A DNA stretch of 64,000 nucleotides from a virus. A program made the translations under genes and the position numbers. Positions within the stretch are counted from its first letter, which is position 1. Each line of letters begins with the position of its first letter. Positions 5,711 to 56,348 of the stretch are shown one piece after another. The DNA lies in IMG/VR virus record IMGVR_UViG_3300017917_005384, positions 62,001 to 126,000 of that record; one strand, written 5' to 3'. The notes beneath the pieces were generated by a model, which saw only the letters and a program-made list of their open reading frames with translations, was not told where the DNA came from and did not search any database.

Positions 5711-6829
5711 ATGAAAAGCATTAAACAACAGTATATAGATTTAAAAGAAGGTAAAATGTCACAAGCAAACTTTATGCGTAATTTACGCATGACTTTACCT
5801 CAATATGTAACTAACGTAACTTCATATAATGATGCTGTTAAAATTCTTCGCAACAAAGGTATTTTAAATGAAAGTCTTATTAAGCAACTAGAACAAGGTA
5901 TTGAAGTAGAAAAAGAACACACTAGTGATGAAATTAAAGCTGCTGAAATTGCTTTAGATCATTTAAAAGAAAAACCTGACTATTATACTAAATTAAAAAA
6001 AGCCGGTTTAGAAGAAAATAAAAATTGGACTAACGCTAGCGGAAAAGAATTATATAGTCAATTTAAAGAAATTGATAACCTAAATAGCCAAGAAGTATTA
6101 ATTGGTATTGATTTTGAAATTGAACAAAATCATGAGTTATCTAAAGAAGAAGCTGTTAAGATTGTTATTAAAAATTTAAAGAAAAACCCATACTATTATA
6201 CTACTAGTTTAATGGCTGGTAAAAAATTTGAAGAAATACCCACTATTGGAAAATTAACACCTGGTTCTGATAAAATGAAAGAATTTAAAGGTGAAAACGA
6301 TGCTATTGATAAGGACAACATGATGAAACCTGTTAAAGGTATTGATAAACCTAAAAAAGACTCTGATAAAGGTGGTGAAAAAAATAAAATGGTTAAAAAT
6401 GTTTCTTCTATGTCTTTAGTTGCTAAAACATCTCGTGGTGTGCAAAAAATGGCTGCTACTGGTGAAAAAATGAAAACTATCAGAGAAGCAGAAGAAAAGA
6501 AAAATACAGATACATCTTCTAATACAAAAAGTGTACCTAGTACTATTTTTAGCAAAAATGCTAAGTTAAGTGCTAGTATTAGTAAATTAATGGATAAAGA
6601 TCCAAATGCTGTTAGTAAACAAAATAGACTTAAAGATATCATTCGTGAATTAATTAAGCAAGAAATGTATGATGGAATGGAACCAATGAGCCGTAAAGAA
6701 TTAGATGAAACTGATATATATGGTATTGCTGGTAATCCTGAAAAAGAAAAAGAAGCACGTCTTGCCTCTATAAAAAAATCTAAACCCTCTACAACAACAA
6801 CTAAAAGTACAAAAAAGCCTAAAAAATGA
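5711..6829 (+). CDS. Head-region protein with two DUF5661-like modules
   Basis: A 372-aa protein. Residues about 50-95 (GIEVEKEHTSDE, then ALDHLKEKPDYYTKL) look like the small helical family I know as DUF5661. A second, more diverged copy follows (GIDFEIEQNHELSKEEA, then NLKKNPYYYT), so the module appears duplicated. The remainder is Lys/Ser-rich and probably disordered. The N-terminus MKSIKQQYIDLKE fits a prohead protease site at L-K-E (11-13). The last codons overlap the protease gene (ATGA at 6826-6829), so the two are translationally coupled. A role as core or scaffold protein is inferred from position only. Confidence 0.55.
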   Translation: MKSIKQQYIDLKEGKMSQANFMRNLRMTLPQYVTNVTSYNDAVKILRNKGILNESLIKQLEQGIEVEKEHTSDEIKAAEIALDHLKEKPDYYTKLKKAGLEENKNWTNASGKELYSQFKEIDNLNSQEVLIGIDFEIEQNHELSKEEAVKIVIKNLKKNPYYYTTSLMAGKKFEEIPTIGKLTPGSDKMKEFKGENDAIDKDNMMKPVKGIDKPKKDSDKGGEKNKMVKNVSSMSLVAKTSRGVQKMAATGEKMKTIREAEEKKNTDTSSNTKSVPSTIFSKNAKLSASISKLMDKDPNAVSKQNRLKDIIRELIKQEMYDGMEPMSRKELDETDIYGIAGNPEKEKEARLASIKKSKPSTTTTKSTKKPKK

Positions 6830-7440
6830 AACAGCTTTTAATAGAACATATTCCCTTTAGTATAGCTAAACTTACTCTTACTGAAAGTAAGGGTGGTAGA
6901 ATGGTATTAGAAGGTAAACTGCAAGAAGCCGAACAAAAAAATGGTAACGGCCGTGTTTATCCTAGAGAAGTATTACAACGCGAAGTAGAAAAATATATTA
7001 AAGGGCCTATATCCCAAAACAATGCCCTAGGTGAACTAGACCATCCAGAATCATCTGTAATTAATTTATCTAACGTTTCTCATAATATTAAAAAAGTATG
7101 GTGGGATGATAATAATTTAATGGGTCGTTTAGAATTACTTAACACACCTTCTGGTAAAATTGCTATGGAATTAGTAAGCGCTGGTATTCCTTTAGGAATA
7201 TCATCTCGCGGTATGGGTAGCGTTAAGCAGCTAGGTGAAACAGTTGAAGTACAAGATGACTTTGAATTATTATGTTGGGATCTGGTATCTATACCCAGCA
7301 CACCAAATGCTTACATGCAACCTGTTGGTTCATTAAAAGAAGGCAAACAATTTAATACTATTACTAAAGACTATAGCAGAGTAAATTCACTTATTACAGA
7401 AATTATTTGCAGTCAAACTGGTATTTGTCCTTTATGTTAA
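6826..7440 (+). CDS. 21: Prohead core protease, T4 gp21-like
   Basis: Serine protease that matures the prohead by cutting scaffold, capsid protein and internal proteins after (L/I)-x-E. Recognised by GRVYP (43-47), GELDHP (69-74), the TPSGKI strand and GISSRGMGS (124-132). Candidate catalytic residues are H73, S126 or S127 and D152. At 204 aa it is close to T4 gp21 (212 aa). Its own N-terminus MKQLLIE offers an L-I-E self-cleavage site at residue 7. Its presence makes the (L/I)-x-E leaders of many small proteins in this window meaningful. It overlaps the upstream gene by 4 nt. Confidence 0.88.
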   Translation: MKQLLIEHIPFSIAKLTLTESKGGRMVLEGKLQEAEQKNGNGRVYPREVLQREVEKYIKGPISQNNALGELDHPESSVINLSNVSHNIKKVWWDDNNLMGRLELLNTPSGKIAMELVSAGIPLGISSRGMGSVKQLGETVEVQDDFELLCWDLVSIPSTPNAYMQPVGSLKEGKQFNTITKDYSRVNSLITEIICSQTGICPLC

Positions 7441-7510
7441 TGTAAAGACTTTGAAATATTTTATTGGCTTTTACTTCTATCATATATCTTATTAGGAAAT
7501 AGATCACATT

Positions 7511-8194
7511 GTGACACTACAGCAAATAAAACAGTTTTATAAAGCATATAAGCAACAAGTTCTTGATGAAATGCAAGAATACTATGATGCTCCTCTACAA
7601 CATATAGAAAGGATAGAATATAATAAGTGGATAGCCTATGAAAATAATATAAAAGTTAATTTTGTATTTATGCGGCGTTTTGGTAATGATTTATATAAGC
7701 TACCTAATATAATCGATAAAAATCAAATAAAAGAGTATTATGAACGTTCATGGAGTTGGGACGAAACAACTCCCGAAAATGAACGAAACGCTAAAAATTT
7801 CCTTAGAGTAATAGGTACTAGTTTTAAAATAACCCAACAATTTTTTCAAGATAAACCTAACTGTAAAATTTTACTATTTACCTCATTAACAAAAGGCCAT
7901 AATAGTATATATAGCAATCCATCTAGATATAGCAAAAAACTAATATCAATATTAGGAGACCAATATCATTATATATCAGACCCAGATAACTTTAGGTACT
8001 GGATTATAAATAAAGATGTAATAAACTATAAAAACCAAAATCATATAAATATACGAATGGAAATGTTAGGAGAAAATATGGATGAAGCTATCAAATATTG
8101 GTATTATCCTCTAAAATATTCCTCAACTTCTTTAAATGTAAAAATTAAAGCTAAAATAAAGCAAAAAATATTAAGAGAAATATACATAAAATAA
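7511..8194 (+). CDS. Hypothetical protein with GTG start
   Basis: A 227-aa, Tyr/Asn/Lys-rich protein that I do not recognise. The frame is closed upstream by TAG at 7493; the first good start is the GTG at 7511, since there is no early in-frame ATG. A 70-bp gap separates it from the protease gene, with no clear promoter box. It ends 60 nt before the next unit, which has its own box. Composition is more AT-rich than the neighbouring head genes, so it may be an inserted accessory gene. Confidence 0.5.
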   Translation: MTLQQIKQFYKAYKQQVLDEMQEYYDAPLQHIERIEYNKWIAYENNIKVNFVFMRRFGNDLYKLPNIIDKNQIKEYYERSWSWDETTPENERNAKNFLRVIGTSFKITQQFFQDKPNCKILLFTSLTKGHNSIYSNPSRYSKKLISILGDQYHYISDPDNFRYWIINKDVINYKNQNHINIRMEMLGENMDEAIKYWYYPLKYSSTSLNVKIKAKIKQKILREIYIK

Positions 8195-8231
8195 AATTAA
8201 TCGCGATTTTTAATATTTACATATATTTATA
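8193..8231 (+). repeat. 39-bp direct repeat, copy 1
   Basis: Matches 9266-9304 with a single A/G difference. It includes the 10-bp palindrome AATCGCGATT (8199-8208) and ends with the promoter box at 8223-8230. Starts inside the stop region of the GTG-start gene. Confidence 0.85.
8223..8230 (+). promoter_or_regulatory. Putative late promoter box ATATTTAT
   Basis: Lies 23 nt before the ATG at 8254, at the right end of repeat copy 1, and would drive the two leader-bearing paralogues. Confidence 0.55.
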
Positions 8232-8253
8232 TCAAACATATCAAAAAAATAAA

Positions 8254-8670
8254 ATGGCCCAATTAATTAACGAAGCAAAAAGAATGCAATTTTTAGCTGG
8301 AATTATTACTGAATCTCAAATAAATGAATTAAATGAACCTGAAAAGGAACTAGTTGATGTTATTTTAGGTGAAGGTATTAATGAAGGAAAATTTAATCCT
8401 AAAGAAATATTAGCTAAATTAATAGCTGTAGCTAAAAAAGGTTTACTTACTGCTACTATTTTATCTACTGTTTTAGCATCTTGTAATTTTGGTCCATCTG
8501 TTGATGAAACTATTAAGAATAGAGTAGAACAACATAAAATTATAAATAGTATGGAATTAGACCAATGGAAAAGAGATGAAACTTTTAAAAATAAAATGGA
8601 TAGCCTTAAACAAGATTTAAAAGCAATTGAATATCAATCTGGACTTTCTAATCCTAAAAATCCTTTCTAA
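8254..8670 (+). CDS. Leader-bearing protein with internal lipobox
   Basis: A 138-aa protein of unknown function. Its N-terminus, MAQLINEAKR followed by MQFLAGIITE, is shared in pattern with the next gene and holds candidate prohead-protease sites at I-N-E (residue 7) and I-T-E (20). Residues 57-77 form a basic then hydrophobic stretch ending LASC (74-77), a good lipobox, but far from the start; it would be N-terminal only after removal of the leader. The C-terminal 60 residues are charged and helical. Either a packaged protein that becomes a lipoprotein after processing, or the lipobox is coincidental. Confidence 0.6.
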   Translation: MAQLINEAKRMQFLAGIITESQINELNEPEKELVDVILGEGINEGKFNPKEILAKLIAVAKKGLLTATILSTVLASCNFGPSVDETIKNRVEQHKIINSMELDQWKRDETFKNKMDSLKQDLKAIEYQSGLSNPKNPF

Positions 8671-8672
8671 GT

Positions 8673-9266
8673 ATGTTAATAAAAGAAGCAAAACGATTAC
8701 AACAATTAGCTGGTATCATTACTGAAGCTGAGCAAGTTGATAGTGCTGAACAAGCCGCTGAAAAAGGATTAATAGATTTTTTAGGAGACATTAAATCAGC
8801 AGCATCAACTATCAAACCATCTCCTAAAGATGGAAAAATACAAGAAGGACTTTTAACATTATTTGCCATCACTGCTGGTGCTCCAGGTTTATTAAATTTA
8901 CTAGGTAAAGGAGCTGATTTAATAGGTCAATATTTTTCACAAGGTAATGTAACTTCTACTAAAGTAGGAGCAGCTTTACAAAAAGCAGGACATAGCTTAG
9001 AACATAAGTATATTGAAGCAATTGCCTTTCTATTAAAAAAAGCATATCCTAAAGATTATGGAAATCAAGATCCATTTGATAAATCATCTCCATTACACGA
9101 TACAGCTCATGGAATTTATGCTGCTATACTAGCAGCGGCCGCTGTGGGATCAGGAATAGAAGCAACTAATGCTGTTAATTTAATTGTAAAAGGATTAGAA
9201 GGAGGAGCAGCAGCTTTTAAAACAGCTGAAGTTGTACAATTAGTACAAAAAATAACAACCGTTTAA
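8673..9266 (+). CDS. Leader-bearing paralogue with hydrophobic segments
   Basis: A 197-aa protein beginning MLIKEAKRLQ then QLAGIITEAE, clearly related over the first 20 residues to the gene just upstream, with L/I-x-E sites at residues 5 and 18. After the leader the two proteins differ. This one has two hydrophobic Ala/Gly/Leu-rich segments (about residues 56-80 and 150-180) that could insert in membranes or pack as helices. It lies 2 nt after the upstream stop and is followed by repeat copy 2. Candidate internal head protein; a holin-like role is less likely given the leader. Confidence 0.55.
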   Translation: MLIKEAKRLQQLAGIITEAEQVDSAEQAAEKGLIDFLGDIKSAASTIKPSPKDGKIQEGLLTLFAITAGAPGLLNLLGKGADLIGQYFSQGNVTSTKVGAALQKAGHSLEHKYIEAIAFLLKKAYPKDYGNQDPFDKSSPLHDTAHGIYAAILAAAAVGSGIEATNAVNLIVKGLEGGAAAFKTAEVVQLVQKITTV

Positions 9267-9413: not shown

Positions 9414-9423
9414 AAAAAAACAA

Positions 9424-10503
9424 ATGAGTAACAAAAACTTATTCAAAGAGGCTATCGCCGACGCCAAAGCCGTTCGCGAAGCAGCGTTAGCAAACGCAAA
9501 AGCCGCTCTTGAAGAAGCTTTAACTCCCAAACTTCAGTCTATGTTAGCTGCAAAGCTTAATGAAATGGCTGATGAAGAAGAGCTTGAAGAAGCAAGAGAC
9601 GACGAAAATGAAATGGAAGAAGGAATGCATCCTGACATTACCGGAGACACTATTCAAGACAAATACCGTGCAACTGGTGCTGCTCTTGAAGAAATGGGGA
9701 TGGATATGGAAATAGATGAAGAAGACTTCGACTTATCTGAAATTTTAGCTGAACTTGAAGATGAAGAAGAAATTGAAGAAGATTTTGATTTATCTGAAAT
9801 CTTAGCTGAATTGAAAGAAGAAAAAGAAGAAGAGGAAGAGGAAGAAGAGGAAGAAGAAGAGAAAGAAGAGGAAGATGAAGAATTAGAGATCAAAGACATG
9901 AGTGTTGAAGATCTTAAAGATCTTATCCGCGACATCGTATCCCAAGAAATGGAAGAAGAAGCTCCTGCTGGTGAAATGGAAGCTGAACCTTCTATGGAAA
10001 TGGGTGGTGAAGAAATGACTAGCGATGATGAAGATGAGATTGATTTAGAAGAACTTTTAGCTGAATTAGATTCTTTAGACGGAACATCCGAGCTTGAAGA
10101 AGCTAAGAAGAAAAAAGCTAAGCAAGATGAAAAAGCTAAAAAAGAAAAAGAAAAAGAACTTGCTGAGGCTATTAGAACTATTAACACCCTTCGTAAAGAA
10201 TTAAACGAAGTTAACTTATTAAATGCTAAGTTAATTTATGTTAACAAAATCTTTAAAGCTAAGAATTTAACTGAATCACAAAAAGTAAAAGTAATTTCTT
10301 CGTTTGACCAAGCAACAACTGTAAAAGAAGCTAAAGTTGTATTTGAATCCTTAAATATGGCTTTAACAACAGCTCCTGCCAAAAAGCAAATTAAAGAATC
10401 TTTAGGATTTGCTTCTAAAGCTGCTGGTGTAGCTCCTAAAAAAGTAATTGTTGAGTCTAATGACGTAATTGCTCGTATGCAAAAACTTGCAAACATTAAA
10501 TAA
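9424..10503 (+). CDS. 22: Prohead core scaffold, T4 gp22-like
   Basis: Main internal scaffold on which the capsid assembles, later degraded by the gp21-type protease. Assigned from its position just before the major capsid gene, extreme acidity with long Glu runs (about residues 130-160), helical N-terminus (ANAKAALEEALTPKLQSML) and coiled-coil C-terminus. A 13-residue element EEDFDLSEILAEL occurs twice (about 100-125) with a third diverged copy (DEIDLEELLAELD near 210). Many L-x-E sites fit proteolytic destruction. Codon use is richer in G/C than in hypothetical neighbours, as in the capsid gene, suggesting high expression. Confidence 0.8.
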   Translation: MSNKNLFKEAIADAKAVREAALANAKAALEEALTPKLQSMLAAKLNEMADEEELEEARDDENEMEEGMHPDITGDTIQDKYRATGAALEEMGMDMEIDEEDFDLSEILAELEDEEEIEEDFDLSEILAELKEEKEEEEEEEEEEEEKEEEDEELEIKDMSVEDLKDLIRDIVSQEMEEEAPAGEMEAEPSMEMGGEEMTSDDEDEIDLEELLAELDSLDGTSELEEAKKKKAKQDEKAKKEKEKELAEAIRTINTLRKELNEVNLLNAKLIYVNKIFKAKNLTESQKVKVISSFDQATTVKEAKVVFESLNMALTTAPAKKQIKESLGFASKAAGVAPKKVIVESNDVIARMQKLANIK

Positions 10504-10540: not shown

Positions 10541-12181
10541 ATGAACATCCAACAATTATTAGAGTCGTCTAACCAATATAAGGTTATTGCTGACGACGCA
10601 AGAAAACTTAACTCCAAGTGGGTTAAATCTGGCCTTTTAGAAGGTTTAAAGAATGAGAACGATCGCAACACTATGGCGATGTTACTCGAAAACCAAGCTA
10701 AGCAATTAGTAACTGAAGCTTCTCAAACTGGTACTGCTACCATCGGTGGTGGTGGATATGGTCAGGAAGCTTGGAATGGTGTAGCTTTACCATTAGTACG
10801 TCGTGTATTTGGTGAAATCGCCGCTAAAGAATTCGTTAGTGTACAGCCTATGAATTTACCTTCTGGTCTTGTATTCTATTTAGATTTCAAATACGGTAGC
10901 AACTTCCCCGATCCTTTCACCCAGAATGGTTCTTTATATGGTGCTAACGCTACTACTAACGTAACTGACATTGCTTCTCAGTCGCTTTATGGTGCTGGTC
11001 GCTTTGGTTACACTATCAACCAATTCTCTGCTTCTATTACCAATGCTGGTACTAGTTCAGCTACATGGGCTGATTTCAACTTTGATTCTGACTATTCAGC
11101 TTCTGCTGCTGCTGGTTCTTGGAAGAAAATCTTAGTTCCCCTTCCTTCTACTGCTGATCAGCTTGGCGTTCGTGCTTTCACTATCGCTTCTGGTTCTATC
11201 GGTGTAAGTGATGTATTACAAGCTTTCACTACTGTAACTAACAGTACTGCTTCGTTTATTGTTACTGGTTCGCTTGTAGCTGCTAATATGAGTCCTACTG
11301 CTGCTACTGTAACATTATATTTCAATGTTGCTCCTCTTTCTACTGCTCGTGGTGATTTTGAAGATGCTAGCGGTGCTGGTTATCCTTCATACAACAGCAC
11401 AGCTGCTGGTGCAGGTAGTGCAATTGCTATTCCTGAAATCAATGTTCAGTTAAAATCTGAGCCTATTGTTGCTAAAACTCGTAAGTTAAAAGCACAGTGG
11501 ACTCCAGAATTCGCTCAGGATCTTAACGCTTACCATAGTGTAGATGCTGAAGCTGAATTAACTGGTATTCTATCTCAGTACATCTCTATGGAAATCGACC
11601 TCGAAATTCTAGATATGTTAATCCAAAATGCTTTCACTAAAGATTACTGGAGTGCTGTCAACAACGTAACTATCGACTCTAACGGTGTTACTAATCCTGC
11701 TGCTTTAGCTTCTGGTTATTACAACACTCAGGGTGGTTGGTTCCAAACTTTAGGTACTAAACTTCAGAAAGTATCTAACAAAATTCATCAGTTAACTCTT
11801 CGTGGTGGCGCTAACTTCCTCGTAACTTCTCCCACTGTAGCTACTATCCTTGAATCTATTCCTGGATTTGCTGCTGATGGTGATGGTGAAAAGATGGAAT
11901 TCAACTTCGGTATTCAGAAGGTTGGTTCTCTCAATAGCCGTTACAAGGTTTATAAGAACCCATACATGACTGAAAACGTAATCTTAATGGGTTACAAAGG
12001 TGCTCAGTTCCTTGAGTGTGGTGCTGTATTTGCTCCATATGTGCCTTTAATCATGACTCCTCTTCTTTACGATCCTAATACCTTCACTCCACGTAAAGGT
12101 TTGATGACTCGTTACGCTAAGAAGATGATTAGACCGGACTATTATGGGAAGATTTATGTTAGTGGTTTAAATACTCTCTAA
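10541..12181 (+). CDS. 23: Major capsid protein, T4 gp23-like
   Basis: HK97-fold shell protein. The family signature is clear after the propeptide: LPLVRRVFGEIAAKEFVSVQPMNLPSGLVFYLDFKYG, matching the MVRR...VQPMN.P.G stretch of gp23 (shown here as separate short motifs VRRVF, VQPMN, PSGLVFYLD). Length 546 aa is near T4 gp23 (521). The maturation cut is predicted after E59 in QLVTE-A, comparable to E65 of T4. Expressed with the scaffold, 37 nt downstream of it, and followed by two hairpins ending in a strong terminator. Codon use is distinctly less AT-rich than in surrounding genes. Confidence 0.93.
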   Translation: MNIQQLLESSNQYKVIADDARKLNSKWVKSGLLEGLKNENDRNTMAMLLENQAKQLVTEASQTGTATIGGGGYGQEAWNGVALPLVRRVFGEIAAKEFVSVQPMNLPSGLVFYLDFKYGSNFPDPFTQNGSLYGANATTNVTDIASQSLYGAGRFGYTINQFSASITNAGTSSATWADFNFDSDYSASAAAGSWKKILVPLPSTADQLGVRAFTIASGSIGVSDVLQAFTTVTNSTASFIVTGSLVAANMSPTAATVTLYFNVAPLSTARGDFEDASGAGYPSYNSTAAGAGSAIAIPEINVQLKSEPIVAKTRKLKAQWTPEFAQDLNAYHSVDAEAELTGILSQYISMEIDLEILDMLIQNAFTKDYWSAVNNVTIDSNGVTNPAALASGYYNTQGGWFQTLGTKLQKVSNKIHQLTLRGGANFLVTSPTVATILESIPGFAADGDGEKMEFNFGIQKVGSLNSRYKVYKNPYMTENVILMGYKGAQFLECGAVFAPYVPLIMTPLLYDPNTFTPRKGLMTRYAKKMIRPDYYGKIYVSGLNTL

Positions 12182-12335: not shown

Positions 12336-12809
12336 ATGAAATTAATAGAAATTATACAACAATTAATTCAAGAAAATAAAGATTTTCCTTGGATAGAACA
12401 ACGTGAATATGAATTATTAGCTGAATTTAATTATAATTTAGAAGATACATATCCAATAACAAATGAATTACCATTTAATATTGAATTTAAAGATGAACAA
12501 AATGGATTAAATATTACTAAAGGTAAATTAAATAATGATTTTATTGAGATAAAATTATATTGGGTAGATAATCAAGGTAAAGTAAGAATGGATACACCTG
12601 AAGGTATTTTACCCAAAACAATGAATACTCATTTGAATAATATTTTAAATAAATTTTTACCTAATTATAATAAATTTTTAATAAGACCTAATGATGATGT
12701 AAGATATAGATTATTCCAATTATTACTAAACAAATATATTAATAAAAATCAATGGAATATGGAATTTAATCCTGAAAATAAATCAATATTTTTAGTTAAG
12801 TATACTTAG
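12336..12809 (+). CDS. Hypothetical protein with capsid-targeting-like leader
   Basis: A 157-aa protein of unknown function. It starts MKLIEIIQQLIQENK, which gives L/I-x-E sites at residues 5 and 13, like T4 internal-protein leaders. The rest is an Asn/Leu/Ile-rich mixed alpha/beta domain. It stands alone between the capsid terminator and a second hairpin-terminator pair of the same design (CCGTAA loops), so it looks like a self-contained late cassette. No ATATTTAT box is perfect here; ATATTTAA at 12252-12259 is the nearest match, about 75 nt upstream. Confidence 0.55.
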   Translation: MKLIEIIQQLIQENKDFPWIEQREYELLAEFNYNLEDTYPITNELPFNIEFKDEQNGLNITKGKLNNDFIEIKLYWVDNQGKVRMDTPEGILPKTMNTHLNNILNKFLPNYNKFLIRPNDDVRYRLFQLLLNKYINKNQWNMEFNPENKSIFLVKYT

Positions 12810-12859: not shown

Positions 12860-12862
12860 CTT

Positions 12863-16084: not shown

Positions 16085-16675
16085 ATGGCGTGGCCTAGAA
16101 CTGGATTAGTATATCTTAATAACACTAGTGTTCCCACACCTGGTGTTTGTTTATCAACAGCAGCAACAGGCTCTTGTGGTGGAGGACCTGGTGGTGGAGG
16201 TGGAACTGGTGGTGGAGGTGGAGGAGGATTAGATCCTATTTTGGTAGGTCAAATACTTAACACTAACCAAAACGTTATATATTACAAAATAAATCTAGAA
16301 CAAACAGTAACAAATATGTATGGTGAGTCACTAGAAAAGTGGTACTATACTGGAGTAGATGTACGTTGTAATATAAATAGAGGAGCAACTTCTAATCCAG
16401 ATGATGAGTTTGGTATAGGTATAGCTCAAAATATAACAGTAGACATACCTAGAGCTCTTATCCAAACATATAATTTTCTACCAGAAGTAGGAGATATATT
16501 AATGGACAGAGAAAGATATTATGAAGTAAATGCTGTGGATTCACAATTTGTAACTATACCAGGAACGGGAGCGTCAAATAGTGTACAAGGAACAACAGGA
16601 CAAATTGTAATGTTTTCCTTATCATGTTATTTAACAAGAATAACAAAACTTAATATTATACCATATTATCAATGA
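16085..16675 (+). CDS. Head-tail connector-like protein with polyglycine linker
   Basis: A 196-aa protein. Residues about 32-48 form a glycine-rich linker (GGGPGGGGGTGGGGGGG). The C-terminal domain ends with LPEVGDILMDRERYYEVNAVDSQF, a pattern common in head-completion or joining proteins. Placed between the gp13-like neck gene and the gp15-like tail terminator, it could be the gp14 equivalent, though I see no direct gp14 signature. The next gene starts inside its last codon region (ATGATG overlap at 16672). Confidence 0.5.
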   Translation: MAWPRTGLVYLNNTSVPTPGVCLSTAATGSCGGGPGGGGGTGGGGGGGLDPILVGQILNTNQNVIYYKINLEQTVTNMYGESLEKWYYTGVDVRCNINRGATSNPDDEFGIGIAQNITVDIPRALIQTYNFLPEVGDILMDRERYYEVNAVDSQFVTIPGTGASNSVQGTTGQIVMFSLSCYLTRITKLNIIPYYQ

Positions 16676-17010
16676 TGAAAATAGCAAATATATTACTTGA
16701 AGGAGCTACTTTATATAAAGTAGATATCTTGATTAAAACCAAGAAAGAAGCTAATAAAGTAGAAATATATAATCAAATTAGAGCATTAACAAATGTTGTA
16801 GTTGTTACTGTTGAGCAAAATGATTTCTTAATTAGTAAATCAACTGATCAGTTTGATTATGAATTATTACATATAAAATTCTTATCAACTAAAGAACCTA
16901 AAGAAACTATAGATGAAATTAAAAAAGATGCCATGATTACTAGACGTATTCCTGGTTTGCTTCAATTCATAGTAAGGTATAAAACAATTCAATCAAAAGG
17001 TAAATATTAA
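16672..17010 (+). CDS. Small protein with 10-residue leader
   Basis: A 112-aa protein starting MMKIANILLE-GAT, with L-L-E ending at residue 10, the same position as the cleavage site of T4 internal protein leaders. The remainder (YKVDILIKTKKEANKVEIYNQIRALTNVVVVTVE) looks like a ferredoxin-like beta-alpha-beta fold found in conserved small proteins of T4-like phages. Function unknown. Overlaps the connector gene by 4 nt. Confidence 0.55.
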   Translation: MMKIANILLEGATLYKVDILIKTKKEANKVEIYNQIRALTNVVVVTVEQNDFLISKSTDQFDYELLHIKFLSTKEPKETIDEIKKDAMITRRIPGLLQFIVRYKTIQSKGKY

Positions 17011-17368: not shown

Positions 17369-18642
17369 TGGCTCGTCCTAGAAAACCAACACCTTTAAAT
17401 CAATCTCAAATTACTAATAAGGTTATCAACCCACCTTATTTAGATAATACTGCTAGAGATGTACAGGAGACTTTATTTTCTCAAAATAGAGGTGAAAATC
17501 TTTCTATGAGGGGGGATAAAGTAAAAACAGTCAGTGTTGGTATACAGGATATAGATGAGGCTGTAATTTATTATTTTAATAATATAATTAAACCTACTGT
17601 TATTCAAGATGGGAACAGAATAGCTGTAAAAGCTATATATGCTTCCCCTGAACGTTGGAAATCTGTTCAAGCTGATGGTTTTTATAGAGATGGTAATGGG
17701 CAAACTGCTGTACCTTTAATTGTATTTAAACGTGATAATATTGAAAAAGTTAGAACATTAGGTAATAAACTAGATGGTAACTTTGCTGCTTTATATCAAG
17801 TAATAGGAACTAAATATAATTCTAGAAACCAATACGATAAATTTTCCATATTAAATAATAGAATCCCATCAGAACAATATTATTTATCAGTAGTACCTGA
17901 CTATGTTACTGTAAGTTATAGTTGTATTGTATTTACTAATTTTGTAGAACAAAACAACAAAATAATAGAAGCAATTGAATACGCTTCTGATTCATATTGG
18001 GGTGATTTAAACAGATGGAGATTTAAAGCCACTATTGATTCATTTGCTACTACTACATTGATTGAAAATGGATTAGATAGAGCAGCCAAATCAACATTTA
18101 ATATTAAATTAAATGGATATCTAATTCCAGATACAGTAAACCGAGATTTAACAGATGCTCGTAATAAATTCTATACTAAATCTCAAGTTATATTTGATTT
18201 AGAAGTAGTAGATGCTGGTAGTACTACTAATGATATTGAAAGAATGAAATTTGCTAATAAAGCCCCTGCTGCAAATTCACTTGCAGCTACATCATTTATT
18301 GGAGGAGGAGTTAACGTGACAAACAATAATACATACATAAGTACAGCCACATCAGGTGATTTAACATACCTTAATACTAATAAAACATTACAAGCAACAT
18401 CTGTTACTGCACCTAACTCAGCAACATTTACAGGATCAATATTGCAACCTCCAGAAGGATCAACATTGCCTTCTACAACAGTAAATAACTTTACATTCTA
18501 TATTAATGGTCAATATGTACCGTCTTCATTAGTTACTTTTGGTATAGGTATGGGAACAGTAACAGCTGTTTTCGATACAACTAATTTAGGTTATACATTA
18601 GAAACAGATGATGAAATAATAGCAATAGGAAAATGGCAATAA
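17368..18642 (+). CDS. 15: Tail sheath stabiliser/terminator, T4 gp15-like
   Basis: Caps the tail tube and sheath and joins tail to head. Residues 50-270 fit the gp15 pattern: AVKAIYASPERWKSVQ, the strand VTVSYSCIVFTNFVEQNNKIIEAI, and KATIDSFATTTLIENGLDRAAKSTFNIKLNGYLIPD, which parallels the gp15 core. The C-terminal 130 residues are Thr/Asn/Ser-rich and look like an added beta domain. At 424 aa it is longer than T4 gp15 (272 aa). It starts in a TAATG overlap with the leader-bearing gene. Confidence 0.6.
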   Translation: MARPRKPTPLNQSQITNKVINPPYLDNTARDVQETLFSQNRGENLSMRGDKVKTVSVGIQDIDEAVIYYFNNIIKPTVIQDGNRIAVKAIYASPERWKSVQADGFYRDGNGQTAVPLIVFKRDNIEKVRTLGNKLDGNFAALYQVIGTKYNSRNQYDKFSILNNRIPSEQYYLSVVPDYVTVSYSCIVFTNFVEQNNKIIEAIEYASDSYWGDLNRWRFKATIDSFATTTLIENGLDRAAKSTFNIKLNGYLIPDTVNRDLTDARNKFYTKSQVIFDLEVVDAGSTTNDIERMKFANKAPAANSLAATSFIGGGVNVTNNNTYISTATSGDLTYLNTNKTLQATSVTAPNSATFTGSILQPPEGSTLPSTTVNNFTFYINGQYVPSSLVTFGIGMGTVTAVFDTTNLGYTLETDDEIIAIGKWQ

Positions 18643-46132: not shown

Positions 46133-46597
46133 ATGAGTAAATTTCAATCAACAAAAGTATTTGATGGGTACAGTACAGTATTTCGTCAATGGAAAGCAGA
46201 AGGTACACATTGTAAATACCTTCATGGCTATGGAGTGTCGTTTAAAGTATGGTTTGAAGGTGAATTAGATGAGAAAAATTGGGTTTGGGATTTTGGAGGA
46301 GCGAAACGTGCTAAAGGTAAAATTGATGATATGAACCCTAAAGAATGGATGGATTACATGTTTGACCATACTATGATTATTTCTGAAGATGATCCTTTCA
46401 TTAATGCTTTTAAAGAAATGGATAAAGCAGGTGTGGCACAAATCCGTATTTTACCGGCAGTAGGTGCAGAGCAATTTGCTAAGTTTATTTTTGAAAAATT
46501 AAATACATTTATTCAAGAAGAAACAAATAATCGAGTTAAAGTAGTTAGAGTAGAATTTATGGAACACAATAAAAATACAGCTATTTATGAAGGTTAG
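46133..46597 (+). CDS. queD: QueD-like 6-carboxytetrahydropterin synthase
   Basis: Second step from GTP towards preQ0: makes 6-carboxy-5,6,7,8-tetrahydropterin. 154 aa. Key residues align well with E. coli numbering: C27 (THCKYLHGY), H31, D78/H79 (FDHT) and a late Glu (RVEFMEH). However the zinc His33 is Tyr33 and there is no His at the first zinc position (FDGYST), so metal binding must differ or activity be altered; this looks like a variant found in phages. It overlaps the following dpdA-like gene by 11 nt. Confidence 0.8.
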   Translation: MSKFQSTKVFDGYSTVFRQWKAEGTHCKYLHGYGVSFKVWFEGELDEKNWVWDFGGAKRAKGKIDDMNPKEWMDYMFDHTMIISEDDPFINAFKEMDKAGVAQIRILPAVGAEQFAKFIFEKLNTFIQEETNNRVKVVRVEFMEHNKNTAIYEG

Positions 46598-47372
46598 TCA
46601 TGAACTCCCTCTTTCATTGATGCATTATAGTTATGAATTTAATGACTATGAATATTGTTTACCAATATTTTTAGATAAATATGAACAATATCGTTTGTTC
46701 TTTCAACGAGCTAGATTAGACAAGAGATTCATAATTATGGATAATTCTCTCTTTGAAGGTTATACCCATACAGTAGAAGATTTATTTGACAAAATATACT
46801 TAATTCATCCTAGCATATTCATTGTACCTGATGAATGGAATAATTCAGCTGCTACTCTTAAAAATGCTAAACATTGGATGATAAATTACAAACAACATCT
46901 GCCTAAAGAAACAGAATTAATGGCAGTATGTCAAGGTAATACCATGGGTGAATTGATCACAACATACCAAACATTAGTAGATTTAGGTTACAAACATATT
47001 GCTTTCAACCATGCTAGCGCAGCATATACTAACTATTATCCTAATCATAGTAAATTATATGCTCAAATGTATGGTAGAATTGAATTAATCAGACAATTAG
47101 TTGAAACTAATACTGTTAGAAAAGATATATGGCATCATATGTTAGGAGCAAGTGATTGGCGTGAATTTCAAGCATATACTGAATTCGATTGGGTTAAATC
47201 GATTGATACATCTGCTCCTATAATTAATGGGGCTTTAGGTGTAAAACTTAACCATGATGAACCATATGTTAAACCAGAAGCTAAATTAGAAAGCATTATG
47301 GAAGTAGATCTTACAGATAAAATGGATATTATACAACATAATGTAGAATTATTTAGAAAAAGTATTAAATAA
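46587..47372 (+). CDS. dpdA: DpdA-like transglycosylase for DNA 7-deazaguanine (probable)
   Basis: A 261-aa protein resembling phage TGT-family enzymes that swap guanine in DNA for preQ0 or a derivative. Motifs: IIMDNSLFEGY (D52), FIVPDEWN (D82), VCQGNTMGEL (114-122), IAFNHASA, and SIDTSAP with D207, a candidate nucleophile. Zinc cysteines of bacterial TGT are absent. Genomic context is strong: queD overlaps it, and queC, queE and folE lie within 5 kb. DNA rather than tRNA as target is inferred from the phage dpdA precedent. Confidence 0.68.
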   Translation: MKVSHELPLSLMHYSYEFNDYEYCLPIFLDKYEQYRLFFQRARLDKRFIIMDNSLFEGYTHTVEDLFDKIYLIHPSIFIVPDEWNNSAATLKNAKHWMINYKQHLPKETELMAVCQGNTMGELITTYQTLVDLGYKHIAFNHASAAYTNYYPNHSKLYAQMYGRIELIRQLVETNTVRKDIWHHMLGASDWREFQAYTEFDWVKSIDTSAPIINGALGVKLNHDEPYVKPEAKLESIMEVDLTDKMDIIQHNVELFRKSIK

Positions 47373-47379
47373 TATTAGT

Positions 47380-47499
47380 ATGAGTAAATACGAACAATTA
47401 ATTAAAGAAAAAGAAGAAAAAAAACGTTTACAAGAATTAGCAAATGCAAAAGATGAACAAAAAGAAATAAGATCTGATATAAAAGGAATGATAGACTAA
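47380..47499 (+). CDS. Tiny helical protein (39 aa)
   Basis: ATG 7 nt after the dpdA-like stop; product MSKYEQLIKEKEEKKRLQEL plus 19 residues is a single highly charged helix. No function recognised. Followed by a 117-bp gap whose only clear feature is the promoter box at 47590. Confidence 0.45.
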   Translation: MSKYEQLIKEKEEKKRLQELANAKDEQKEIRSDIKGMID

Positions 47500-47589
47500 C
47501 TAGCTCAAAACTTTAAAAAAATTACAAATGAGTTATCAAAAAGAAGAAATGTATGAAACTTCATTTTGATAAGGCAAAATATCTTTAAT

Positions 47590-47597
47590 ATATTTAT
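47590..47597 (+). promoter_or_regulatory. Putative promoter box ATATTTAT
   Basis: Ends 19 nt before the ATG at 47617. Confidence 0.45.
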
Positions 47598-47616
47598 ATA
47601 AATTAAAATAAAAATT

Positions 47617-47898
47617 ATGTTATCGCTTTATGATTATCTAGGTCAAGCCGCTGGTAAGGAATTAGGACAACAAGTAGCAGAATATGCTAAAATTAGAAAA
47701 ACAAAATGCAGTATGCGTTATGTTTCTAATCCTAAATATAAAGGAAATGTAATATTATACACTAAAGAATTCTTGGATGAGTATTTCGAAGTAAAAAAAC
47801 TATTTACAAAACCATATAATATTGACTATACTGAAATTAATACTCAGTTAATGGAAGATAGTATTAAACAACAACAAAATGAATTAGAAAATGCATAA
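47617..47898 (+). CDS. Hypothetical protein before queC
   Basis: A 93-aa protein (MLSLYDYLGQAAGKELGQQV; RYVSNPKYKGNVILYTKEFLDEYF) of a type I have seen in related phages but cannot name. Alpha/beta with a charged C-terminal helix. Overlaps queC by 8 nt, so it may be needed at the same time or simply share its transcript. Confidence 0.55.
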   Translation: MLSLYDYLGQAAGKELGQQVAEYAKIRKTKCSMRYVSNPKYKGNVILYTKEFLDEYFEVKKLFTKPYNIDYTEINTQLMEDSIKQQQNELENA

Positions 47899-48742
47899 TA
47901 AAAAACAAGCAGTACTTAGTCTTTCTGGTGGTATGGATTCAAGTACTTTACTACTCCATCTACTTGCTAATGGTTATGAAGTTACAGCATTATCATTTGA
48001 TTATGGGCAAAAACATAAAGTTGAACTAGAACGAGCAAAAGATCTAGTAATGTATCTTAACCAACAATCAGGACCTAATGCCCTTATTAAACCTATAACT
48101 CACCAAATAATTAAAATTGATGGTTTACAACAATTACTTAATTCAGCATTAGTTGAAGGTGGTAAAGATGTTCCTGAAGGACATTACGAACAAAATAATA
48201 TGAAAGAAACTGTTGTTCCTAATCGTAATAAGATTTTTAGTTCTATTATTCAAGCAGTAGCATTATCAATTGCTACTAAAGATGAAAAACAAGAAGTAGA
48301 TATTGCGTTAGGTATTCATGCTGGTGACCATGCAATTTATCCTGACTGTAGACAAGAATTTAGAGATGCTGATATGGAAGCATTTAGAATTGGTAACTGG
48401 GATTCTGAACTAATTAAATTCTATACTCCTTATTTACATGCTGATAAATTTGGTATTTTAGAAGATGGTTTAAAAGCATGTGAGAAATTAAATTTAGACT
48501 TTAATGAAGTATATAAACGTACTAATACATCTTATAAGCCAATTCAATTACAAGTAGGAAATTATTTAAATAATCTACAATGGTTTTCTGATTATAAATC
48601 AGCAGCATCAGTAGAACGTATTGAAGCATTTATTAAACTAGGACGTCCTGATCCTGTAGCATACGCTGATGAAACAGGACCTGTGAGTTGGGAAGTAGCT
48701 AAAGCACACGTAGAAAAAGTTTTAGCTGAACATCAAAAGTAA
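47891..48742 (+). CDS. queC: QueC-like 7-cyano-7-deazaguanine synthase
   Basis: ATP-dependent step giving preQ0 from 7-carboxy-7-deazaguanine. PP-loop SGGMDSST at 12-19, then LSFDYGQKHKVEL and VVPNRNKIFSSI, all typical. Unlike most bacterial QueC proteins, the four zinc cysteines near the C-terminus are missing: the usual TxSCY is TNTSYKP, and the C-x2-C-x2-C region is DYKSAASVERIEAF. The flanking VERIEAF and LGRPDPV are kept, so this is a coherent phage subtype rather than decay. 283 aa. Not fused to a glutamine amidotransferase domain. Confidence 0.85.
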   Translation: MHNKKQAVLSLSGGMDSSTLLLHLLANGYEVTALSFDYGQKHKVELERAKDLVMYLNQQSGPNALIKPITHQIIKIDGLQQLLNSALVEGGKDVPEGHYEQNNMKETVVPNRNKIFSSIIQAVALSIATKDEKQEVDIALGIHAGDHAIYPDCRQEFRDADMEAFRIGNWDSELIKFYTPYLHADKFGILEDGLKACEKLNLDFNEVYKRTNTSYKPIQLQVGNYLNNLQWFSDYKSAASVERIEAFIKLGRPDPVAYADETGPVSWEVAKAHVEKVLAEHQK

Positions 48743-48794
48743 GAAGGCAAAATAAAGATATTATCTTTAAGTAAACAAAAAACAATATATAGTT

Positions 48795-49031
48795 ATGAGT
48801 TATCAAACAAACGTTCGTGCAAATTACATGAACAAGACAGCAAAATTGGCATTTTACAATGCTCGCAAGCGTGAAGGTGATACTGCTCGCCTTGCAGAAG
48901 AAACAGGTTACACCACCCGTTTTATTAATTATGTGAAGCGTGGTGAACGTAGTGTAAATGATACTGTTGCTAATGCAATGTATAATCTCGCTCGTCGCCG
49001 CACTAAAATGAACAAATTAGCTAATGCCTAA
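48795..49031 (+). CDS. Small HTH DNA-binding protein
   Basis: A 78-aa basic protein with a helix-turn-helix (DTARLAEETGYTTRFINYVKRGERSVN) like small host-type regulators of Bacteroidota. A second in-frame ATG is at 48828. Could be a transcription regulator of the queC-queE region. A strong terminator follows. Codon use is less AT-rich than in its neighbours. Confidence 0.6.
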   Translation: MSYQTNVRANYMNKTAKLAFYNARKREGDTARLAEETGYTTRFINYVKRGERSVNDTVANAMYNLARRRTKMNKLANA

Positions 49032-49038
49032 TTTATTG

Positions 49039-49070
49039 ACATCCCCCGAAAGGGGGATGTTTTACTTTTT
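49039..49070 (+). terminator. Rho-independent terminator with GAAA loop
   Basis: A perfect 9-bp GC-rich stem (49039-49047 with 49052-49060), GAAA tetraloop and TTTACTTTTT tail. Separates the HTH gene from the next unit. Confidence 0.9.
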
Positions 49071-49082
49071 AAAACTAAAAAC

Positions 49083-49307
49083 ATGAAGTGTATTAAAAAT
49101 ATAAAAACTGGAGAAATTGTTAGGGTTGAAGATAAATTGGCTCACCAAACTGTAGGTATTACTTGGCAATATATTTCTAAATCTGAATGGAAAGCAGCCA
49201 CTAGAGTAGTAACTGAAAAACAAGAAGTAGAAGCTGAAAAGAAAGAAAAAACTGTGAGTGAAAAGGCTGTTAAACGTTCTAAACTTAAATCAAAACAAAG
49301 AAAATAA
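49083..49307 (+). CDS. Small basic hypothetical protein (74 aa)
   Basis: MKCIKNIKTGEIVRVEDKLA then a Lys/Glu-rich tail ending KRSKLKSKQRK. The first 40 residues look like a small beta-barrel (SH3-like); the tail is disordered and basic. Unknown function; ends 1 nt before the ClpP-like start. Confidence 0.5.
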   Translation: MKCIKNIKTGEIVRVEDKLAHQTVGITWQYISKSEWKAATRVVTEKQEVEAEKKEKTVSEKAVKRSKLKSKQRK

Positions 49308-49308
49308 T

Positions 49309-49872
49309 ATGATTCAGTTACCTATAGCTAAAGAAAGAAACTTATACTTAGCTAAACAAGTCGATCAAGCATCCATTAATGAAATCAGTAAGGAGATTAT
49401 TGATATAAATCAAAACGATGATTATTTAGGAAAACTAGCTGAACTTCACGGAATGAAATATACGCCGAAACCGATTAAACTCTATATCGATTCATACGGT
49501 GGTTATGTATATCAGTGCTTAGGACTGTTAGGGATTATTGATAAGTCGGTAGTACCCGTTCATACGATCGTAACAGGTGCTGCTATGAGCTGTGGATTTC
49601 TTATAGCAATTACCGGGCATAGACGTTTTGCATATGACAATGCAACACACATGTATCACCAAGTTAGTTCTGTTATGTGGGGTAAGTTAAAAGATATGGA
49701 AGAAGATCTTGAAGAAACCAAACGCCTACAGTCTCTAATTGAAGAACATACTTTATCCCGTACTAAGATGACTAGAGAAATGCTTGAAAAAAATTATAAG
49801 AGTAAGAAAGATTGGTTTATTAATACCAAGCAAGCTTTGAAACTAGGTATTATAGATGAAATTATAAAATAA
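49309..49872 (+). CDS. ClpP-like serine protease
   Basis: A 187-aa protein with the ClpP fold: IKLYIDSYGGYVYQCLGLL, catalytic Ser94 in GAAMSCG, His117 in HMYHQV, and the C-terminal KLGIIDEI. The start at 49309 gives a normal N-terminus (MIQLPIAKER); an upstream in-frame ATG lies inside the previous gene. No ATPase partner is in the window, so it may work with host ClpX/A or alone. A prohead-protease role is unlikely because a gp21-type protease is present. Might alter host proteolysis during infection. Confidence 0.8.
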   Translation: MIQLPIAKERNLYLAKQVDQASINEISKEIIDINQNDDYLGKLAELHGMKYTPKPIKLYIDSYGGYVYQCLGLLGIIDKSVVPVHTIVTGAAMSCGFLIAITGHRRFAYDNATHMYHQVSSVMWGKLKDMEEDLEETKRLQSLIEEHTLSRTKMTREMLEKNYKSKKDWFINTKQALKLGIIDEIIK

Positions 49873-49877
49873 ATAAT

Positions 49878-50759
49878 ATGAGTAAAATAGATCCAAACAA
49901 GTTATTAATTAGTAGTGATTTCTACAGCATCCAAGGTGAAGGAAAAAGTAGTGGTATTCCATCATACTTTGTACGCCTTGGCATCTGCAATCTTACTTGC
50001 GGTATGAGTAGAGTATTTGCTAATAAATTAGCTAAAGAACAAACATTAGAAGACGGGGAAATATTTGTAGGTGATTTACATGCTGAAGGTAAAGCAACTT
50101 GGACTTGTGATTCTACAAGTCAGTGGTTATGGAGAGGTGAAGATAAAGAGTTTCAATATTTGATTGATCGTTGGAAAGAACAAGGTATCTATGAAGATAT
50201 TAGAGATGGTATAATCCATATCATTTGGACTGGTGGTGAACCTACAATTAAAGGACACCAGGAAGCAATTGTGAATTTCCATAAGTATTGGAAGTCAGTA
50301 GATCCAGAAATTGATTTATATGATTTTGATGATCCTGAATATAATCCATTAAATGCTCATGGAATGTTTTATAATGAAATAGAAACTAATGGTACTGTTC
50401 ATATTGAGGATAGTTTATTTTTATTGTTAAATCAAATTAACTGCTCACCAAAGCTATCCAACTCAGGTATGACTGAAAAACAACGTATTGTACCTGCTGC
50501 TATTAAGCGCATTATGGAACATAGTAATTACCAATTCAAATTTGTTATCAGTACAGAAGATGATGTTAAAGAATTATTCCGTGACTTTGTAGAACCATTT
50601 AATATCCCACTCAAAAACGTTGTTTGCATGCCAGGATTAGATGATGTAGCTAATTTTGAAGAACGTACTCAATTCTGTCTTGAAATGGGGAAGAAATATA
50701 AGTTTAGGGCCCTTACACGGCTGCACATAGCAGCGTGGAATAAAACATTAAACGTATAA
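49878..50759 (+). CDS. queE: QueE-like 7-carboxy-7-deazaguanine synthase (radical SAM)
   Basis: Ring-contracting radical SAM enzyme of the preQ0 route. IQGEGKSSGIPSYFVRLGICNL is the standard opening. The [4Fe-4S] cysteines are C37 and C41 (CNLTC) and, after a 35-residue insertion, C77 (TWTCDS), so the usual C-x3-C-x2-C spacing is broken open. IIWTGGEPTIKG provides the GGEP SAM-binding motif, and FKFVIST and VVCMPGLDD fit the C-terminal half. At 293 aa it is longer than typical QueE (about 220). The spacing is a real deviation visible in sequence. Confidence 0.82.
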   Translation: MSKIDPNKLLISSDFYSIQGEGKSSGIPSYFVRLGICNLTCGMSRVFANKLAKEQTLEDGEIFVGDLHAEGKATWTCDSTSQWLWRGEDKEFQYLIDRWKEQGIYEDIRDGIIHIIWTGGEPTIKGHQEAIVNFHKYWKSVDPEIDLYDFDDPEYNPLNAHGMFYNEIETNGTVHIEDSLFLLLNQINCSPKLSNSGMTEKQRIVPAAIKRIMEHSNYQFKFVISTEDDVKELFRDFVEPFNIPLKNVVCMPGLDDVANFEERTQFCLEMGKKYKFRALTRLHIAAWNKTLNV

Positions 50760-50765
50760 GTTATG
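50739..50765 (+). repeat. 27-bp direct repeat, copy 1
   Basis: Spans the queE C-terminus and the next ATG. Repeats at 50929-50955 with one C/T difference, 190 bp on. Confidence 0.8.
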
Positions 50766-50933
50766 AGTAAAGAAGAAAAAGAAGAAATACTAAGAATATC
50801 TAAACATTTACAAGAACTAAAAGATTGGTTAGATGACCAACCTGGACATCCTACTCATTTAAGTAACTTACCAACTTGGTTTTGGGAAACATGGGGTGAA
50901 TGTATTGAAGACTTAAAATACTTAACTAAATAA
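50763..50933 (+). CDS. Small acidic protein (56 aa)
   Basis: ATG 3 nt after queE; product begins MSKEEKEEILRISKHLQELK and ends in a Trp-rich segment (LPTWFWETWGECIEDL). Clean frame and tight spacing support it. No function recognised. Confidence 0.5.
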   Translation: MSKEEKEEILRISKHLQELKDWLDDQPGHPTHLSNLPTWFWETWGECIEDLKYLTK

Positions 50934-50955
50934 AACATTAAATGTATAAGTTATG
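50929..50955 (+). repeat. 27-bp direct repeat, copy 2
   Basis: Second copy of 50739-50765; again ends at an ATG (50953) that opens only a 20-codon frame. Suggests duplication or a shared start/promoter element. Confidence 0.8.
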
Positions 50956-51026
50956 GCTGAAATATGGTATAGAATAGTTTACATTCCCTTTATATATAAA
51001 TTAATAAAGCATTAATTATATAGAAT

Positions 51027-51206
51027 ATGTTAGATCTTTTAGAAAAACGTATTATTAAAATACTTAAAAACAATAAAGTAAGTAATAACCACATAGAGAT
51101 GTATATAGATGATATCTTTTCATTTAATAATAAAGAACTATATGAACAAGTAGACGACGAAGATATCGTATATGGATTTAATAAATGGTTAGGAGAGCAA
51201 AAATAA
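51027..51206 (+). CDS. Small hypothetical protein (59 aa)
   Basis: MLDLLEKRIIKILKNNKVSN followed by an acidic helical part (ELYEQVDDEDIVYGF). Unknown function. Lies 18 nt before folE in the same orientation. The stretch 50934-51026 before it holds the second repeat and a 20-codon frame only. Confidence 0.45.
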   Translation: MLDLLEKRIIKILKNNKVSNNHIEMYIDDIFSFNNKELYEQVDDEDIVYGFNKWLGEQK

Positions 51207-51224
51207 AAATCGTATATTTAAAAT

Positions 51225-51950
51225 ATGGAAAATAAACGTAGAAAAATAACAAATGCTGAAACACTAGAAACAGCACAACCTGGATTTGCAAATGGAATTT
51301 CAATCCAGCTCCAAACATTACTAAATAATGGAGAACACCGTTCATTAAATCATCAGGAAAAACTAATGATTATTGAAAATGCTGAGAAAGCATATGGTGA
51401 TTTCCTTACAGCATTGGGTGTTGATTGGCGAAATGATCCCAACAGTATGGAAACACCTCGTCGTGTAGCTAAGGCCTATGTTTTAGATTTATGGAAAGGA
51501 AGATATGAACTACCAAGTGATATTACAGCATTTCCATCTGATGGTTATAAGGGAATTGTATTAGAAAGAGATATTCCTATTGTTAGTATGTGTTCACATC
51601 ACCATCAATCTATTTTAGGTAAAACACATATTGCTTATATACCTGGTGAAGATGGTAAAGTAGTAGGTTTAAGTAAATTAAATCGTATTGTAGAACACTT
51701 TGCTCGTAGAGGTGCTATCCAAGAACAACTTACAGTTGCTATTCATAATGCTATTCAAGCTGTAGCTGAAACTGAAAATGTAATGGTAGTAGTACATTCA
51801 TACCATAACTGTGTATCATGTAGAGGTGTAAAACACTTTGGTGCTAGTATGGTAACAAGTGAAGTATCAGGTGTATTTGCTGATCATACTAAAACAGCTA
51901 AAATGGAAGTAATTGAAATGTTAAAATTAAATATGGAGGGATATAAATAA
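51225..51950 (+). CDS. folE: GTP cyclohydrolase I, FolE
   Basis: First step from GTP, giving dihydroneopterin triphosphate for the preQ0 pathway. Zinc ligands C123 and H126 (SMCSHHH) and C196 (HNCVSCRG) are present, with TPRRVAKAY, GLSKLNRIVEHFARR and QEQLTVAI matching the family. The N-terminal 60 residues extend past a minimal FolE. 241 aa. Overlaps the next gene by 1 nt. Linked to queD/queC/queE, so its role is base modification, not folate. Confidence 0.92.
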   Translation: MENKRRKITNAETLETAQPGFANGISIQLQTLLNNGEHRSLNHQEKLMIIENAEKAYGDFLTALGVDWRNDPNSMETPRRVAKAYVLDLWKGRYELPSDITAFPSDGYKGIVLERDIPIVSMCSHHHQSILGKTHIAYIPGEDGKVVGLSKLNRIVEHFARRGAIQEQLTVAIHNAIQAVAETENVMVVVHSYHNCVSCRGVKHFGASMVTSEVSGVFADHTKTAKMEVIEMLKLNMEGYK

Positions 51951-53144: not shown

Positions 53145-53183
53145 TTTGATTTTGTCAAAACAATTTAATATATTAAAAAAGTT

Positions 53184-55760: not shown

Positions 55761-55790
55761 TGGTTATTTAATATATGGCGAGAAAAATAA

Positions 55791-55798
55791 ATATTTAT
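55791..55798 (+). promoter_or_regulatory. Putative late promoter box ATATTTAT
   Basis: Inside the palindrome ATAAATATTTAT, ending 4 nt before the ATG at 55803. Confidence 0.5.
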
Positions 55799-55802
55799 AA
55801 CC

Positions 55803-56348
55803 ATGATTAAATTAATAGATATACTAAAAGAAAATAAAAGAAACATTTATTTAACAATGTATGCTCTTTTTACTGAAAAAAACGGCAGTTGGAAAACAGA
55901 AAATGATTGGTCTTTTAACCCCACATTTAAAACACAAGGTTTAATAGCAACATATGGAAAAGGAGCTAATGGGCAAAGTTGGGGTAAACCATCAATTTTA
56001 TGTACAGAATATAATGGAGAAAATCCATTTGAAGGATCACATTCTGGTTGGAAATATGCTATTATTTTTAAAAAAAATATTGATGAAATTTATATAGATG
56101 ATGAAATTTTTTATTATGGAGATTATCCTTCTGAAGAACAAGAGAAAGAAGCAATAGAATATATATATAAAACAACAGATAATAAACAAGATGTTTCTTT
56201 AGGTGTATTACATACTAAATTTGGATCTATTATAATTCAAGATAATTTTCCACAAGGAAATTATGTTTTAAATATAAAACCTAATGAGATAATCAAAATT
56301 GTTAAAGGAGAAGGAAATATAAAAATAAAGTTTGGTAAGTCAAATTAA
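55803..56348 (+). CDS. Putative packaged protein with capsid-targeting-like leader
   Basis: A 181-aa protein starting MIKLIDILKE-NKR, nearly the same leader as the gene at 44252 although the bodies are unrelated. Cleavage after L-K-E would be at residue 10. The body is a mixed beta domain (FKTQGLIATYGKGANGQSWG; YAIIFKKNIDEIYIDDEIFY) that I do not recognise. It lies between DNA polymerase and sliding clamp genes but carries its own late-type box, so expression is probably late and the location accidental. Confidence 0.55.
   Translation: MIKLIDILKENKRNIYLTMYALFTEKNGSWKTENDWSFNPTFKTQGLIATYGKGANGQSWGKPSILCTEYNGENPFEGSHSGWKYAIIFKKNIDEIYIDDEIFYYGDYPSEEQEKEAIEYIYKTTDNKQDVSLGVLHTKFGSIIIQDNFPQGNYVLNIKPNEIIKIVKGEGNIKIKFGKSN

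Follow-up and report, generated by a model that had tools for sequence, protein, structure and literature searches.

The DNA analysed here is a 64,000-nt stretch (bases 62001-126000, hereafter the window) of the 155,189-base IMG/VR virus record IMGVR_UViG_3300017917_005384, a T4-like phage that probably infects Flavobacterium-type bacteria; the remaining 91 kb and related phages were also searched. The window holds a T4-like head module with its genes in T4 order, comprising a portal (1584), core proteins (3516-5711), an S77 prohead protease (6826), a scaffold protein (9424) and a capsid protein (10541). Among cultured phages, Flavobacterium phage immuto was the closest relative found (capsid proteins 58% identical). 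The protease, which the initial annotation had called gp21-type, is indeed of that type: its GELDHP and GISSRGMGS motifs align with T4 gp21. The capsid protein has a predicted cut at QLVTE59/A60, which aligns with LTE65/A66 of T4 gp23. Spread through this genome are short, shared N-terminal leaders on otherwise different proteins. At least 24 of the ~217 open reading frames (ORFs) of 60 aa or more carry one, some of the starts lying inside the longest ORF and having been picked by the leader itself.

The leaders were sorted into three classes. Class A, with the consensus MIKLxDILxE (MIKL[ILT][DNH][IM]LxE in this genome), is found at genome positions 37161, 38698, 39415, 40073, 41369, 43842, 45947, 78672, 79015, 106252 and 117803, with the glutamate at residue 9 in 41369 and 43842, and in a longer form at 49897. 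Class B (..RMQxLAGIxxE), in which RMQxLAGI is followed by (I/L)xE, is found at 43425, 46852, 47968, 48317, 53992, 70254 and 70673, and class C (MKKSELRxIIKEE and similar) at 39828, 51147, 51662, 59485 and 67203, with weaker members at 17974, 58300 and 66367. The four leaders from which the initial annotation started (window 16672, 17015, 44252 and 55803) are exact ORF starts, and all have Glu at residue 10. Of the variants listed with them, those at 8254 and 8673 hold up, as members of the second class (RMQxLAGI); 5711 (MKSIKQQYIDLKEG) is the start of a conserved head-cluster protein and differs from the leader, and 12336 is weak. The description of the family as scattered was half right, in that the leaders are dispersed but the largest cluster falls beyond the window, at genome 37-60 kb, with others near the head genes. 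Extending the search to the rest of the genome and to relatives, as had been suggested there, yielded the present set of proteins and classes; classes B and C as separate groups, the main cluster and a link to the scaffold had been missed.

Table. Leader-bearing and head-module proteins of the window (window coordinates; a slash separates leader from body).
Feature	Position	Strand	Evidence or remark
Class C-like N-terminus MGNLKEYIKSLVRKELEEQS..., gp67/gp68 position	4367..5062	+	
Class C, MTVKDLRILVKEVLKE/TKTLGE..., 154 aa	5203..5667	+	
Conserved head-cluster protein, PF18905 domain	5711..6829	+	Starts MKSIKQQYIDLKEGKM; doubtful as a cargo leader
S77 prohead protease, gp21 type	6826..7440	+	PF03420 3e-30; PHROG 207 1e-56
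Class B, MAQLINEAKRMQFLAGIITE/SQINELNE..., 138 aa	8254..8670	+	
Class B, MLIKEAKRLQQLAGIITE/AEQVDSAE..., 197 aa	8673..9266	+	
Prohead core/scaffold protein, gp22 position	9424..10503	+	C-terminus (~10447-10500) IVESNDVIARMQKLANIK, then stop = class B tag
Major capsid protein gp23	10541..12181	+	Alignment with T4
Weak leader candidate, MKLIEIIQQLIQE/NKDF..., 157 aa, placed in no class	12336..12809	+	
Class A, MMKIANILLE/GATLYKVD..., 112 aa, ferredoxin-like body conserved beside head/neck genes	16672..17010	+	29 orthologues; AlphaFold2 (AF2)
Class A, MIKLLNILSE/LEKPQQIY..., 117 aa	17015..17368	+	
Class A, MIKLIDILNE/AINKDIVYIYRSQ..., 213 aa	44252..44893	+	Leader retained in 5 homologous loci
Class A, MIKLIDILKE/NKRNIYLT..., 181 aa, orphan body	55803..56348	+	Search for relatives of the body: none found

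When the N-termini of non-homologous ORFs were compared without any motif, 71 sharing pairs were detected in the genome, against 2 for an internal-Met control. Across six related genomes, MIKL..[ILM][LI]xE was present at 20 of 1312 ORF starts and at 0 of 4324 internal Met positions, and within the window the class A pattern gave 3 matches versus 0.00 in shuffles. Scanning IMG/VR with the class A DNA pattern returned at least 138 matches in at least 120 stretches; 135 of the 138 matches listed begin ORFs of at least 40 aa, and among the matches listed the leader heads at least 51 unrelated body clusters (BLAST E 1e-4). A codon-scrambled control pattern matched 14 times in the entire collection, every frame being 39 aa or shorter, and the ratio of class A to this control is a lower bound. 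The 29 matches to the class A pattern in 257 Gb of bacterial and archaeal genomes were mostly in short or internal frames, and class A is therefore not a common bacterial protein start. The likeness could in principle be one of DNA and not of protein function, gene starts sharing an element for regulation or recombination, and the leaders do sit in gene clusters where some upstream sequences recur. However, codon position 2 is conserved (mismatch 0.07 in leaders vs 0.64 upstream) while position 3 and the upstream DNA vary, and the class B tag also occurs C-terminally, far from start codons; we consider such an element extremely improbable.

The feature conserved in the leaders is the predicted cleavage site. 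Among 50 ORFs selected by residues 1-7 only, residue 8 was Leu or Ile in 48 and residue 10 was Glu in 42, with residue 9 free, and the exceptions at residue 10 mostly have Glu9 with Ile or Leu at residue 7; the combination L/I8-x-E10 was present in 2.4% of other ORFs. In T4 IPIII, mutants place targeting mainly at positions 4 and 7 of the leader and processing at 8 and 10 (PMC9026906). Class A conserves L4, I/L7, L/I8 and E10, which are these same positions, with 8 and 10 tested without selection and 4 and 7 having belonged to the search pattern. In 29 orthologues of the 16672 protein, E10 is invariant and L4 and L8 nearly so, while the leader residues around them drift. The AF2 model of this protein gave a predicted local distance difference test score (pLDDT) of 51 for residues 1-10 and a folded domain from residue 11, mostly above 90; a Foldseek search with the model found no PDB match at E<=0.001, the hits being unannotated viral relatives only.

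The class B leader resembles a copy of the scaffold's C-terminal peptide placed at the N-terminus. Its core peptide occurs 149 times in relatives, 99 times at the extreme C-terminus, 46 times near the N-terminus and 4 times elsewhere. The C-terminal tags are mainly in two families, the scaffold (9424) and a protein whose opposite end bears a class C leader (genome 59485); in this genome, a 679-aa class A leader protein (genome 43842-45881) also has a class-B-like C-terminus (IKRILKLAGILR). At the N-terminus, the tag is carried by ~34 unrelated bodies, with (L/I)xE directly after it in 30 of 34 body families, and many of these copies also retain I-x-E ahead of the core. For C-terminal tags, (L/I)xE directly precedes the tag in 92 of 99, compared with an expectation of ~30%, the members being related and not independent. 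A site between tag and body in either orientation fits a removable docking peptide, and the resemblance to the scaffold suggests that class B probably reaches the capsid via the scaffold's own contact. The leaders were very probably derived in part from the scaffold tail, or converged on it, which suggests a route by which targeting signals arise. Short amphipathic N-termini have many possible roles, and the leaders might have nothing to do with the head, serving instead to direct proteins elsewhere in the cell or to set their stability (as a degron, a membrane anchor or a signal for replication sites, for example). Nothing direct favours this, while the identity of class B to the scaffold C-terminus, the retained (L/I)xE and the alignment of class A with the functional positions of the T4 capsid-targeting sequence (CTS) make it very unlikely.

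From phage to phage, the leader in front of homologous bodies differs, and the junction between the two falls on or close to the predicted cut. This is seen for MIKLIDILNE/AFFIGEDD (L165) and MKLSELRHLVKETLKE/AFFIGEDD (L099), for MIKLLDILE/NLDPVGKED (41369) and MKKQLINEAFRLQQLAGIMPINSLNE/KLDAVGHED (L128), and for MIKLSDLIEE/QDCGCNGP (L114) and MKLSQIRVLIKETLKNTLNE/DCGCNGP (L153). For the 8254 protein, the likeness to several relatives is limited to about residues 1-25 (65-92% identical) and the body is different. At the level of sequence, the swaps argue strongly for one shared job of classes A, B and C.

Leader families also extend to cultured phages. Immuto carries classes A (MIKLIDLLTE on gp40, QQO91719), B (..LAGIITE on gp41, QQO91720) and C and a further leader (FDLKKFLVENKLT), and its scaffold has ..IISE ahead of the tail; its fourth leader family, FDLKKFLVENKLTxNSxLLxE, is present on different proteins (1803, 103806, 117631 and 118632). 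Maribacter phage Molly, which encodes S77 (1.6e-7), has its own family, M..IKSLIESxxxVxxI...LTEA (44 pairs vs 1), and in SPO1, which is without S77, no leader family was evident. S77 was found in 21 of 45 leader contigs compared with 2 of 12 control contigs, and three of the S77-negative contigs, on which close relatives of this phage's sheath and recombinase are encoded, look like fragments.

The initial annotation had read the leaders as capsid-targeting, and the sequence tests run on the leaders all came out in favour: leader sharing restricted to N-termini, site conservation with (L/I)xE kept among free neighbours, unrelated bodies, swaps whose junction falls on or close to the site, a fold that starts just after E10, a scaffold tail identical to the class B tag, and the presence of the protease. 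From these features, which are legible in the DNA itself, we infer packaging, cutting, injection and cargo function, and we consider it highly likely that the leaders are interchangeable capsid-targeting propeptides of the T4 IP/Alt type on proteins that are pre-packaged and injected. The leaders would bind the scaffold or core as the head assembles and bring any fused protein into the prohead, where the phage's S77 protease would remove them after (L/I)-x-E; the freed bodies would remain with the DNA, enter the host at infection and act at time zero. The three or more leader classes would then be interchangeable modules on one cargo pool. We also lean, with less assurance, towards a general cargo-loading code: in this lineage of T4-like phages, the peptide with which the scaffold's terminus docks on the capsid, along with other docking peptides, would be copied onto any gene whose product is to be loaded into the head. 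Swappable leaders would let phages exchange an arsenal of pre-emptive anti-defence or takeover enzymes, active from injection and ahead of phage gene expression.

Several observations weigh against this interpretation. The C-terminus of T4 gp22 gave no match when compared with the class B peptide, and no clear shared leader was found in RM378 or Microcystis phage Mel-JY01, both of which have S77, so that S77 does not imply a leader system. The S77-negative leader contigs include many short fragments, and also a 102-kb contig (G018) that is unexplained. Class C is loose and is also present on a gene adjoining baseplate genes (17974, G000), the junction is exact in some swap pairs only, being looser in the remaining ones, and a search for virion proteomes of these phages (immuto and Molly) found none. 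It is also conceivable, though unlikely, that the leaders only bind core or scaffold and that the proteins are temporary parts of the prohead core, cut and expelled rather than injected as effectors. In T4, gp21 destroys the core proteins gp67, gp68 and gp22 (PMC9026906), and several leader proteins lie within the head cluster (window 4367-9266). However, (L/I)xE sites are sparse in class B bodies (0.011 per residue), recognisable bodies are often enzymes (GNAT, ADP-ribosyltransferase (ART), kinases), and many bodies vary among relatives and are encoded at a remove from the head genes.

Recognisable domains were detected in a minority of leader-bearing bodies, and the label "effector" given in the initial annotation is valid for that minority only, not for the remainder. 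L143 has a clear ART-PolyVal domain (2e-10), the protein at 49897 in this genome is a GNAT acetyltransferase (3e-11), and L174 combines a P-loop kinase with a 5'-nucleotidase and resembles polynucleotide kinase (PHROG 2643, 1e-28). Further bodies match an RNA-ligase-like PHROG, an alpha/beta hydrolase and HAD, while matches to a PBECR3 RNase in L212 (4e-5) and to a 2H phosphoesterase/Acb1-like domain in L197 (1e-4 to 4e-4) were below the cut-off. The 44252 protein is possibly ART-like; it had no Pfam or PDB match, and its AF2 model was poor (pLDDT 41, 4 sequences), so this idea remains by eye and unconfirmed. For many of the cargoes, a role as host-takeover or anti-defence enzymes is plausible. 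Separately, a kinase-like ORF (L223, IMG/VR 3300024256_000051) has an apparent intein C-terminal part (..NHNYYVGKSEVNVHN/SGKTYV) within its P-loop.

Other genes were noted in the same genome. The window encodes a GroES-/GroEL-like pair (57799-59807) and a cluster resembling preQ0/queuosine genes (46133-51950; QueC-, QueD-, QueE- and FolE-like by eye), which suggests that the DNA is modified with deazaguanine, a modification also annotated in immuto. Small paralogues like MORN-type repeat proteins (..GYWE.YY..G.L..KGHY) lie at genome 130-378, 1521-1844, 3646-3888 and 52891-53136 (L002, L004).

Most phage proteins are without an assigned role. Should the leaders indicate virion cargo, many of these proteins could be assigned to "packaged and injected" by a simple rule on sequence, which would also flag candidates against defences of the cyclic-oligonucleotide-based anti-phage signalling system (CBASS) type and RNA-targeting defences. 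T4-style cargo loading would become testable in a cultured phage (immuto), and interchangeable leaders could become parts for phage protein delivery into bacteria.

The CTSs of T4 IPI, IPII, IPIII and Alt are cut by gp21 (Mullaney and Black 1996, in the account given by the review PMC9026906). Shared with them are an N-terminal leader of 10 residues that is hydrophobic or aromatic at positions 4 and 7, (L/I)8-x-E10, an encoded S77 protease and unrelated bodies. Unlike in T4, the leader reads MIKLxDILxE rather than MKTYQEFIAE, and there are at least 24 proteins, at least three interchangeable classes, one of them common to the scaffold C-terminus, and a much wider cargo; leaders of the T4 kind have very probably been expanded and diversified here. 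According to PMC5694885, T4 Alt has a propeptide at each terminus, and the giant phages SPN3US and phiKZ are similar in that a prohead protease cuts propeptides, including C-terminal ones (SPN3US protease; T4 Alt), but these are mostly long, with the motif S/A/G-x-E, and the text consulted there describes no short swapped leader family. Literature on "capsid targeting sequence", chiefly on T4, P1 and SPN3US, contained no title on Bacteroidota phage leaders, a partial coverage in which absence is not proof of novelty. Polyvalent proteins (Iyer et al. 2017, PMC5512222) have overlapping domains (ART-PolyVal, PBECR) and were proposed to be injected with DNA, but have many domains per chain; here, mostly single domains each have a leader, and the scanned representatives had mostly one domain or none rather than two or more effector domains per chain, L174 being an exception. 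Finally, ARTs were proposed to be packaged in myovirus heads on the basis of gene context, namely domain fusions and neighbourhood (PMC9503650), whereas here the leader sequence would mark the cargo directly.
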